22,642 bases of DNA. It comes from a virus. A program made the position numbers and the translations under genes. Location of the stretch: IMG/VR virus record IMGVR_UViG_3300037580_000143, positions 1-22,642 of that record; one strand, written 5' to 3'. The notes beneath the pieces were generated by a model, which was not told the origin of the DNA, searched no databases, and saw only the letters and a program-made list of their open reading frames with translations. Shown one piece after another: positions 5,878-9,448 of this stretch. Every line of letters begins with the position of its first letter. Position 1 is the stretch's first letter.

Positions 5878-5883
5878 TGGTTC

Positions 5884-6825
5884 TTACGCGGTGTTGTCGT
5901 TGGTTACAACGAGTTCATTCGTCGACCCGACCTTACGGGCTTGGGCGTTTACGATCAACGGGACTTCTTGCTTGCCGTTGATGATTGGCGTCTCAATAGG
6001 CCACTGAAGCACGCCGAAAGTGAATAAGGTCGACTTGGTAGATGTCGTGAATTTAACCGTCGCCGTAGCCCCTGCCAGCGTGATGTTGTAGAGAGCTACG
6101 TTGCCTGAGTTCCAAGGCACCTGCGCACGGAACCCGATGTCGCGGTCACGAGGGATAAGCGAGTGAGGAACCAACGAGTTGACGTATCGAGCATAGATGT
6201 GATTGTCCCCGTAGATCATGAAGTTTTCGATGATCCGGGCTCCACCTTGGAGCGTGACAGCGGCGTCGCAGTCGGCGAACTGGTAGTACGTGCCAGTGTC
6301 CAGCGATGGAGCTGATCCAGGCCACGAGGTGCCCTTGGCGCTATCGCTGCCGATGATGTAGAGCCTGAGCATCAGCATGTCAGGTTCGCCGCGTTCGAGC
6401 AGTTCAGGTGCGCGACTACGCAACACCCACCGATCGACACAGCAGTTCTTGAACTCGAACGTGTCGTAGTCCATGTCGATCAGGATGCCGAAATACGGTT
6501 GCAGCTCAGTGAGCGAATGCACATCCCCCGACACGCTGTCACCGATCATGTGCGGCAGAAAGTCGGCGAACTGCTGGGAGCTGACCATCATGTCGATGTG
6601 GCCGGTGAAGTAGCTTGGGCCGTACCTCGCACGCTCGGAGCGATGCGAGCGACTGCCTGTGATGCCGTTGTCGGCACCAATGACGCGACCTGTCTCCTTC
6701 ATCGTGACGCTCGCGTACTCGATGATGGTTCCGTTTCCGGTGGAGTAGTCATGTGTATCGGTATCACCAGCCGCACTGATGATGACCTTGGTAAAAACGC
6801 CTTGTGAGTGTGATCCGGCCGTCAT
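5884..6825 (-). CDS. Major tail tube protein (313 aa)
   Basis: This is probably the subunit that polymerises into the tail tube of a long non-contractile tail. The N-terminal half contains TGSRSHRSERARYGPSYFTG followed by a hydrophobic strand (HIDMMVSS) and QFADFLPHMIGD (about residues 55-95), then LQPYFGILIDMDYDTFEFKNC. This matches the order I know for the Phage_tube_2-type family: a SRSH..ER element, a TG.I strand, a xxLLPxILG helix and a PYF...D strand. The second half repeats a strand pattern (FMIYGDNHIYARYVNS, LIPRDRDIGFRAQVPW) expected of a tube beta-sandwich. GGGAG seven bases before the ATG fixes the start. Neighbours are a repeat protein upstream and a Pro-rich protein downstream. 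The tail tube call is strong by family resemblance but has not been checked by search. Confidence 0.82.
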   Translation of the reverse strand: MTAGSHSQGVFTKVIISAAGDTDTHDYSTGNGTIIEYASVTMKETGRVIGADNGITGSRSHRSERARYGPSYFTGHIDMMVSSQQFADFLPHMIGDSVSGDVHSLTELQPYFGILIDMDYDTFEFKNCCVDRWVLRSRAPELLERGEPDMLMLRLYIIGSDSAKGTSWPGSAPSLDTGTYYQFADCDAAVTLQGGARIIENFMIYGDNHIYARYVNSLVPHSLIPRDRDIGFRAQVPWNSGNVALYNITLAGATATVKFTTSTKSTLFTFGVLQWPIETPIINGKQEVPLIVNAQARKVGSTNELVVTNDNTA

Positions 6826-6829
6826 TGGT

Positions 6830-7147
6830 TTACTCCCTGTTTGGAGTCCCTGGAGATTGCGGGGTATAGTCTACAGTCTTTCCCTTACTTCTGGGAACGT
6901 AACTCGCAGAAAGGCTCGTCACGCTTGGGGTGTATCCGGCCGCTTGGCCCTTAGTTAACGGCCGGTAGTCAATACTTGCACCCTTGCTTGAAGCGTTGTA
7001 ATCACTCGAATGGCCGGTGGTTCTCGGAATGTAGCGGGTGATAACGACGTTGGCGATGAGAACAGATGCTGAACCACGGAACACACCGCTAGCGAACACG
7101 TTCGCCGCGAATGTCTTGGCCTCGAATGTGTCTTTTGCACTAGCCAT
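6830..7147 (-). CDS. Small tail protein with six 11-residue tyrosine repeats (105 aa)
   Basis: The start codon lies inside the end of the fibre-like gene (ATGGCTAG overlap), so it is translationally coupled. Residues 1-37 are FEAKTFAANVFASGVFRG followed by a hydrophobic VLIANVVIT strand, like short tail or decoration N-termini. From residue 39 a strict 11-residue period begins. Tyr falls at 39, 50, 61, 72, 83 and 94, with consensus Y-x-P-x-[ST]-K-G-x-x-x-D (for example YVPRSKGKTVD and YRPLTKGQAAG). Copies have diverged, and the fourth lacks Lys and Gly. Such short Tyr/Pro/Lys repeats should form an extended or beta structure exposed on the virion. The role is unknown. Its place between fibre and tail tube suggests a tail-surface or linker protein. 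Confidence 0.72.
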   Translation of the reverse strand: MASAKDTFEAKTFAANVFASGVFRGSASVLIANVVITRYIPRTTGHSSDYNASSKGASIDYRPLTKGQAAGYTPSVTSLSASYVPRSKGKTVDYTPQSPGTPNRE

Positions 7148-8891
7148 ACACCACCGCTGTTCTATTTCCGCTGCTGTCTACCGTTACGGTGGCTCTAGTT
7201 GTCGCGCCGTCAAGCCCGACAAAGACCTCTGTTCCTCCTCCAGCACCAGATATCTCACCGCCGCAAATTGCTGCGATGATCTGCAGTGCGGCCGGCATGG
7301 TCTTGCCGTCCACGAGCACGAGGTCGAGTCCAGTCGACACGAGCGAGTACCCGGTTTTGGTTGTCGGGACGGCGTCGATCAGTGTCTTAAGCGCGCCAAG
7401 CCCATCTGTCCCGTTACTGAGATCAGTGTTCACTGTGTCGACCAGCGTTTTCAATGCTCCCAGTCCGTCAGTTCCGTTACTGAGATCAGTTTGGATTCCA
7501 TCCGCGACAGTGTCTAACGTGTCTATCAACGCCTTGAGTGCGCCTAGTCCGTCCGTGCCGTTACTGAGATCGGTCTGCAACGCGGCGATCTCGGTGGCTA
7601 TCGCGCCAAAACTACCGCCTGCAACATGTGAAGATTGGGTTTCGTCCCAAACTTGGTCAGCGATTGCGTTAGCTGTGGGTGGCGTGCCTGTATAGGCGCT
7701 GTCAGTACCGCGCATTGCTGTGGTTGGGATTGCGTCGATTAGGAGATCGAGACGACCGCCGTTGATCCAGTCGGTGCATGTAGCAAGACGAACTTCGGTA
7801 CACACAGAGGCAAGGGCGGCAGAGTCGGTGCCGCGCATGGCGGTAGTCGGGATGGCGTCTATTGCTGTTTTCAGCGCGGTGAGTCCATCAGAACCGTTCG
7901 CTAGTTCGTCCCTGATCGTATCGAGCAGGCTCGCGCCGTTCTCTTCGAGTTCGGTTTGAATTTGAGCTACGGTCGGTGGCGTTCCAGTATAGGCGCTGTC
8001 AGTACCACGCATGGCGGTAGTTGGGACGGCATCAATCAATGTCTTGAGCGCGCCTAGTCCGTCCGTGCCGTTGGCCAGATCAGCAATAATGGTGTCTTGT
8101 TTGGCTTCAGTGGCATCCCCACCACCACCACCACCGGATGGCGCTTGCTCCAATGCGTTGGTGGTGAATCTGGATACGCCTGAGTCACTCTCGACAATTT
8201 CATTTAGTAGTGCGGTCGACGTTCCTGGTTTGCTTGCGGGATCGTAGTTAACAGCCAACAGATGGTCTAAGTGAATGTCAGTCAAGGCTGTCGCCACGTT
8301 CGCTGGGGTTGCAGCGCTGTCAGTACCACGCATGGCTGTGGTTGGGACGGCATCAATCAATGTCTTGAGTGCGCCTAGTCCGTCCGTGCCGTTAGCCAGA
8401 TCAGCCATAATGGCGGCTGTATTGGTGGCGAGCGAGGACGCGGAAACTATGCTGCCACCACAGGCGATGAGATCCACTTTAGGTAAGCCTGCAATCGATG
8501 TGGCGACACATGCCGAACCGAGCCACTTAGTCACGTCAGCGGAACGTGCGCTCAGCGGGATCAACTGGGCTTCCGCTTTAACACCGGTAAAGAAAATGTG
8601 GATAATGACGTAGTCCCCGGCAGAGACAGCAGCGTCTGGTAGATCCAGTCGGTAAAGCCCCTTGGCATTAGTGGCGTCAACCTCCTTGAATCCCCCGTCT
8701 GCATGTAGGGACGAAGGGTTGCCAAGAGTAACCAAACTAATGGTCACTTCAGTACCGCGATTGCGAGTGTACGAGCACTTGACACCTGCCGAGTTGTAAA
8801 GCAGTCCTGTCTCTTCCAAGAACGTGGTGGAATCTACGAGCATAAAGTAGATCGTTACGTCCGTGTCACCGGCTACGATTCCGTAGTCCAT
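7140..8891 (-). CDS. Repeat-built fibre/baseplate-upper-like protein (583 aa)
   Basis: Residues 1-112 form a beta-rich domain ending in GGFKEVDATNAKGLYRLDLP, like the N-terminal domain of upper-baseplate (BppU-type) and fibre-anchoring phage proteins. Residues about 155-515 are repeats. NG[TS]DGL occurs at 167, 274, 332, 443, 472 and 493, and PTTAMRGTDSA at 183, 290, 348 and 389, joined by LKTLIDA helices. A Gly6 run at 253-258 and DATEAKQDTIIADL form hinges. The C-terminal 60 residues (KTMPAALQIIAAICGG, then VDSSGNRTAVVYG) look like a terminal cap. The helical repeats suggest a trimeric coiled shaft. The start is taken as the ATG in TGATG overlapping the previous stop, with a G-run before it; a GTG one codon earlier is the alternative. 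Receptor-binding or shaft function is inference. Confidence 0.78.
   Translation of the reverse strand: MDYGIVAGDTDVTIYFMLVDSTTFLEETGLLYNSAGVKCSYTRNRGTEVTISLVTLGNPSSLHADGGFKEVDATNAKGLYRLDLPDAAVSAGDYVIIHIFFTGVKAEAQLIPLSARSADVTKWLGSACVATSIAGLPKVDLIACGGSIVSASSLATNTAAIMADLANGTDGLGALKTLIDAVPTTAMRGTDSAATPANVATALTDIHLDHLLAVNYDPASKPGTSTALLNEIVESDSGVSRFTTNALEQAPSGGGGGGDATEAKQDTIIADLANGTDGLGALKTLIDAVPTTAMRGTDSAYTGTPPTVAQIQTELEENGASLLDTIRDELANGSDGLTALKTAIDAIPTTAMRGTDSAALASVCTEVRLATCTDWINGGRLDLLIDAIPTTAMRGTDSAYTGTPPTANAIADQVWDETQSSHVAGGSFGAIATEIAALQTDLSNGTDGLGALKALIDTLDTVADGIQTDLSNGTDGLGALKTLVDTVNTDLSNGTDGLGALKTLIDAVPTTKTGYSLVSTGLDLVLVDGKTMPAALQIIAAICGGEISGAGGGTEVFVGLDGATTRATVTVDSSGNRTAVVYG
7993..8413 (-). 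repeat. Near-identical ~100-bp direct repeats 321 bp apart inside the fibre-like gene
   Basis: Bases 7993-8092 and 8314-8413 align with only a handful of differences. They encode the two best-matched copies of the NGTDGLGALKTLIDAVPTTA and AMRGTDSA unit. The offset is exactly 321 bp, or 107 codons, so the frame is kept. Further shorter and more divergent copies occur near 7383-7420, 7440-7485, 7525-7575, 7696-7745 and 7825-7910. The high DNA identity (synonymous sites included) points to recent duplication or ongoing gene conversion. Confidence 0.85.
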
Positions 8892-9448
8892 CACATCCCC
8901 CCGCTAACTTGAAATCCACCGGACAGTTGCGAGTGTACTGGCGATCCTCCTGCTGGCGAACCCGCGTCTGGGCACTCAAACCATGCGCGATTAACATACG
9001 ACGTTATCATTGCGCCCCCACTCGTATCAGTTGCAGTAATCACCAGATTTAAGTCAGTATAATCAGTTAGCTCAGTGTCGATATCGGTTGAAGCCAAAAC
9101 CATCGTATAATCAGTCCCCGATTCATCTGCCGAATACGCTACGGAGAAATCCTGATTTTTAAGAGACGTGGTCCCCTGTTTCAAGTTGATATTAAGCGTG
9201 ACGCTTCCCGCATACTCATCGTCCACATAGGCATTAACCACCACCTTGTGGTTAGTGTGATCCGCTGGATCTGTTACGTTACCCAAGGTAAATGTAGCTT
9301 CTTCGCCAGAGTCGTCCGAGTGTGACACATATATGCTGTCCGTCCCTCCCGAAACCTCATCAATGGCTTCGTATAAATCACCCGACATTGCGCTGCTCGC
9401 CCAATTCCCAATAGCAGTGTCAGAATCTGGTCGTCCGTATTGTGTCAT
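8891..9448 (-). CDS. Tail/virion structural protein (185 aa)
   Basis: It opens MTQYGRPDSDTAIGNW, then SGDLYEAIDE and GGTDSIYVSHSDDSG. This RPxSDxxxxxW...LYxAIDE...D.IY pattern is one I associate with small virion proteins of aquatic phages. It is followed by a strand-rich domain that looks like one or two immunoglobulin-like or jelly-roll folds (KVVVNAYVDDEYAGSVTLNI; LNLVITATDTSGGAMIT). The C-terminus is Gly/Ser/Pro-rich and flexible. The stop overlaps the next gene's ATG (TGATG). The start ATG overlaps the stop of a 20-codon micro-ORF (ATGA). It probably coats or decorates the tail or neck. The precise role is unknown. Confidence 0.72.
   Translation of the reverse strand: MTQYGRPDSDTAIGNWASSAMSGDLYEAIDEVSGGTDSIYVSHSDDSGEEATFTLGNVTDPADHTNHKVVVNAYVDDEYAGSVTLNINLKQGTTSLKNQDFSVAYSADESGTDYTMVLASTDIDTELTDYTDLNLVITATDTSGGAMITSYVNRAWFECPDAGSPAGGSPVHSQLSGGFQVSGGM

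Follow-up and report, generated by a model that had tools for sequence, protein, structure and literature searches.

Two aromatic ladders in a small phage protein, a putative variant of a recurring kind encoded next to a fibre-like gene

Stacked aromatic ladders are common in solenoid proteins. The small phage protein analyzed here can be compared with the pentapeptide repeat proteins, which form a right-handed quadrilateral beta-helix, and with arrays of Y-N-P-x-x-P-G-N-x-x-x units in large phages. It shares with the former an aromatic centre every five residues in its N-terminal 25 residues, and its four pentads would equal one coil. It differs in having one coil's worth only, no Asp or Asn at position i-1, and an 11-residue array unlike theirs. 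Multiple 20-residue A(D/N)LXX coils are absent, and the pentapeptide repeat profile of Pfam gave no match at E 0.1. The arrays of large phages (L006 to L011, L020, L021, L033, and L038) have Tyr, Pro, and Gly equally placed in units of 10 or 11 residues, although these three residues were chosen by the search pattern and the proteins are bigger and carry another N-terminal domain. These arrays are long and come after an N-terminal YGKxxVxVSGxGxPG region. L009, the one protein of this kind that was searched, had no match in Pfam, PHROG, or the phage records.

The window is a virus record of 22.6 kb, with recognizable terminase (phrog_2, E 5e-16), portal, and major head genes upstream of the locus (Table 1). 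The plus strand at 6830-7147 is closed; it is the minus strand that carries the gene, a point absent from the original prediction. The 105-aa protein had no significant match in Pfam, PHROG, NCBIfam, or PDB sequences. No known family was clearly matched, and the original prediction likewise knew of no named repeat family with the pattern. There was no significant homologue in annotated phages and plasmids either, and the literature search yielded nothing on the pattern. The record IMGVR_UViG_3300037555_000192 was discarded as an independent relative: with 2 mismatches in 16.6 kb and an identical gene, it represents one and the same virus and so gives no dN/dS.

Table 1. Coordinates of the features of the locus in the window
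Feature	Positions	Strand	Remarks
Gene of the 105-aa protein with two aromatic ladders	6830..7147	-	ORF on the minus strand; 8-base overlap with the stop of the upstream gene; ATGGCTAG
N-terminal aromatic pentads, residues 7-25 (F8, F13, F18, F23)	7073..7129	-	Homologous to the N-terminus of the L260 protein
Array of six units of 11 residues (residues 39-104), each opening with Tyr; Pro at position 3 in five	6836..7033	-	
Upstream partner, 584 aa, fibre-like: Ig/BppU-like N-terminal domain, internal repeats (GTDGLGALKTLIDAVPTTAMRGTDSA), conserved C-terminal domain adjoining the small gene	7140..8894	-	
Downstream neighbour	5884..6825	-	Weak match to the minor tail family phrog_290, E 9e-6

The protein has six tyrosines in all, at residues 39, 50, 61, 72, 83, and 94, which confirms the regularity first noticed. 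Equal spacing of six Tyr in 105 residues is expected by chance with a probability of 6.5e-7. The 16 identities counted at lag 11 in residues 39 to 105 were matched by none of 100,000 shuffles, and none of 300 window-wide shuffles gave a run of at least six using every copy of one residue. The units are YIPRTTGHSSD, YNASSKGASID, YRPLTKGQAAG, YTPSVTSLSAS, YVPRSKGKTVD, and YTPQSPGTPNR. The consensus originally given for them, Y-x-P-x-[ST]-K-G-x-x-x-D, describes them on average: Pro and the Gly of position 7 are each present in five of the six units, but the Lys of position 6 and the Asp of position 11 in three only. The DNA of the units is strongly divergent, as had been claimed, with 10 to 18 of the 33 bases alike in pairwise comparisons (30 to 55% identity). 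Identical residues other than Tyr share a codon in just 10 of 38 unit pairs, synonymous codons being mixed, and Tandem Repeats Finder detected no DNA-level tandem repeat at the gene. The diverged DNA units, the mixed codons, and the lack of a DNA array indicate a repeat that is either old or rebuilt at the protein level, in line with the original view of an ancient repeat kept at that level.

The N-terminal domain of the partner has 278 relatives in viral contigs and was modelled with confidence (pLDDT 88.9). Its comparison with solved structures gave nothing at E 0.001 or better and some weak Ig-like resemblances, one of them to a baseplate chain of phage 80alpha (E 0.07). Among predicted viral structures there were seven better matches, mostly uncharacterized, and proteins annotated as BppU rank lower. 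The internal repeats of the partner (e.g., 7993-8092 versus 8314-8413, minus strand) reach 95% DNA identity over 100 bases and are thus recent, in contrast to the old 11-residue array beside them. Because the partner has an Ig/BppU-like domain and the downstream gene shows a weak match to a minor tail family, gene context makes a tail or fibre association of the small protein likely. Its initial description as a tail protein is thus plausible, although in L042 the equivalent gene pair sits between portal and capsid genes. In L260, the small gene is placed between the partner and neck/tail genes.

The 105-aa protein directly follows the conserved C-terminal domain of the partner and opens with four aromatic pentads, a second ladder of period 5 on which the original prediction was silent. 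In phages and prophages, the gene after this C-terminal domain usually encodes a small protein opening with four aromatics at period 5. The loci with the N- or C-terminal domain of the partner were collected independently of the pentad pattern. At least three period-5 aromatics were found at the start of the next gene in 5 of 8 C-terminal-domain loci versus 4 of 352 control genes (P = 1.4e-7, a value to be taken as indicative, since the eight loci were hand-assembled from those with a readable next gene). The next frame of L354, in which Y recurs at period 5 to give four copies (GYFPNRYFPSGYWADRYW), would make a sixth locus. Wherever the pentad run occurs at this syntenic position, it has a length of four: in the window, L042, L043, L044, L048 (second gene), L056, L060 (twice four), L084, L260, L311, L354, L356, L359, and L360. 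The ladder of L362 has period 4, and those of L353 and L355 are partial. The enrichment holds for the C-terminal-domain set; in the broader collection based on the N-terminal domain, with an automatic next-gene rule, it was not significant (2 of 62 versus 4 of 352), and the idea that pentads accompany each relative of that domain was dropped. L357 and L358 were set aside as weak matches without the gene pair. Many next genes of the N-terminal-domain set are filled by other short repeats, and those seen after the partner in L054, L058, L080, L099, and L101 include GxYxLxGTAAAG, LTSGAxLR, RLGxxGGxRPxYxSFxGK, NAxATGLxAxV, and ETDTAxAL. L060 encodes a 304-aa protein (5878-6792, plus strand) whose W/Y pentads come in two sets, each of exactly four (RYWSANYWGTRYWPDGYW and AYWPTGYWPTGYWKEGYF). 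In L048, a long gene (6263-8155, plus strand), peptidase-like by eye, lies between the partner and the pentad gene.

Two loci, L260 and L184, proved informative among those retrieved by the pattern scans. Most other Y-period-11 matches in viral contigs were low-complexity or non-coding readings, and L235, retrieved by an N-terminal match, turned out to be a tail-type protein, long and repetitive, instead of a homologue. The small gene of L260 (IMGVR_UViG_3300009788_000282; MASSKDTFESGTFLANTFACGTFRG...) is, as judged by its alignment, a true N-terminal homologue of the 105-aa protein: it is 54% identical over 39 residues and has the four F pentads. The alignment stops exactly at Y39 versus F40, the residues from which the aromatic arrays start, and L260 then continues with aromatics at period 10 (F40, F50, and Y60), three units, and other filler residues. 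The C-terminal domain of its partner is 70% identical to that of the window, compared with 58% in L084 and 52% in L311. In L260, unlike in the window, the partner is separated from the small gene by an HNH-type homing endonuclease-like gene (6455-7078, minus strand; identified by eye).

In L184 (extended as L349; IMGVR_UViG_3300006754_000025), a 106-aa gene begins before the stop of the preceding partner-type gene (925 aa), which has the internal repeat motif of the window's partner (48% identity over 42 residues). Its product carries six Y-x-P units (YMPRKQARTD, YVPGTTLAMDA, YSPGRVGDVDD, YAPGTAAGDSP, YDPRRQPRPSE, and YKPRRERD), spaced by 10, 11, 11, 11, and 11 residues. The position after a partner-type gene, the six units of mostly 11 residues, and the similar length are as in the window, whereas the N-terminus lacks aromatic pentads, the filler residues are unlike, and the first spacing is 10. 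Beyond Tyr and Pro, the likeness of the two arrays is no greater than that of permuted columns (P = 0.34). Since L184 was located by a search for Y and P at the period, these shared residues are partly selected; the gene position was not part of the search, and it is the independent evidence. The arrays could be convergent, because there is one outside example and no likeness beyond Tyr and Pro. L184 was the one 11-residue array found at this syntenic position outside the window virus, which makes such arrays rarer than pentads. The original prediction would have been refuted by a match to a known repeat family or by a period not conserved in homologues, and neither clearly came about. The 11-residue period recurs in a comparable array of a syntenic gene but gives way to period 10 in the true homologue L260 and is not strictly conserved.

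The arrays of the window and of L184 have one consistently hydrophobic position per 11-residue unit (position 1), and both are predicted by charge-hydropathy to be disordered. The single-sequence AlphaFold prediction (pLDDT 57), which is weak evidence of disorder, left residues 40 to 105 without secondary structure; it placed a helix at residues 4 to 39 with low confidence, which fits poorly with the Gly- or Pro-rich relatives in that part. The original prediction had suggested either a short beta-solenoid or a linear binding array. We favour the latter because of the single hydrophobic position per unit, the predicted disorder, and the lack of AlphaFold structure. All six tyrosines are 11 residues apart and a similar six-unit array occupies the matching gene position of a distant phage, which suggests spaced "sticky" residues docking on a neighbouring part of the virion, rather than a folded domain. 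We tentatively propose, as a reading that may well be right, that the protein is a small accessory virion protein whose two linear aromatic ladders act as a modular "sticker" binding the partner or a virion ring. The pentads (residues 7-25) would be the probable anchor, docking on the partner, most likely on its C-terminal domain. Residues 39 to 104 would form six extended flexible units, mostly Y-x-P, exposing one tyrosine per about 30 to 36 angstroms. The tyrosine would be the contact residue of each unit, and the array may hold on to repeated sites, either of an adjacent virion structure (fibre or tail/neck ring) or of the host surface.

The same array might also be a flexible linker or surface decoration, i.e., a low-complexity tail whose regularity results from ancient duplication more than from position-specific binding. 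We consider this unlikely, though it deserves attention: the composition is rich in P, S, T, G, and K, unrelated Y-N-P-x-x-P-G-N arrays of 10/11 residues were matched in large phages, and other short repeats occur in many genes at the same syntenic place. Yet all six units kept their Tyr despite turnover at synonymous and other positions, and the array is the C-terminus of the protein and so links nothing. Still less probable is a short beta-solenoid, in which each unit would be a coil, with the tyrosines stacked on one face and Gly, Pro, and Asp in the turns, giving a small spike, perhaps only when oligomeric. The strict spacing, the constant places of the turn-forming residues P, G, and D, and the frequency of aromatic ladders in solenoids are consistent with it. 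Inward hydrophobics would be expected at several positions per coil and we found one consistently hydrophobic position in 11, no strands were predicted, and one spacing of L184 and the period of L260 are of 10 residues. A single chain running around a hexameric ring with one Tyr per subunit is very improbable, since the six units of the window and of L184, and a span of about 36 angstroms estimated for 11 extended residues, are set against two examples only and three units in L260.

Taken as a whole, the 105-aa protein is one variant of a type of small phage protein that recurs but has no name. A broader reading, to which we give little credence, would make these a widespread and previously undescribed class of small aromatic-ladder virion proteins, with four aromatics at period 5, sometimes followed by an array of period 10 to 11, docking on the Ig/BppU-like fibre protein, the six-unit form being a linear ribbon that would fasten a virion ring of six-fold symmetry in the manner of a staple. 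Four pentads equal one quadrilateral beta-helix coil and both 11-residue arrays have six Tyr units, which invites an explanation by symmetry from few examples. The position after the conserved fibre-like gene is a recurring site, in viral contigs and bacterial genomes, for tiny proteins with regularly spaced aromatics, none of which has a named family. The outcome is a conserved gene pair together with a sequence feature that can be counted, and the recurrent four pentads, with the six units of two phages, provide a testable tie between sequence period and particle symmetry. Should these proteins serve as virion adaptors, they would offer a simple means, encoded by repeats, to attach or cap fibres.
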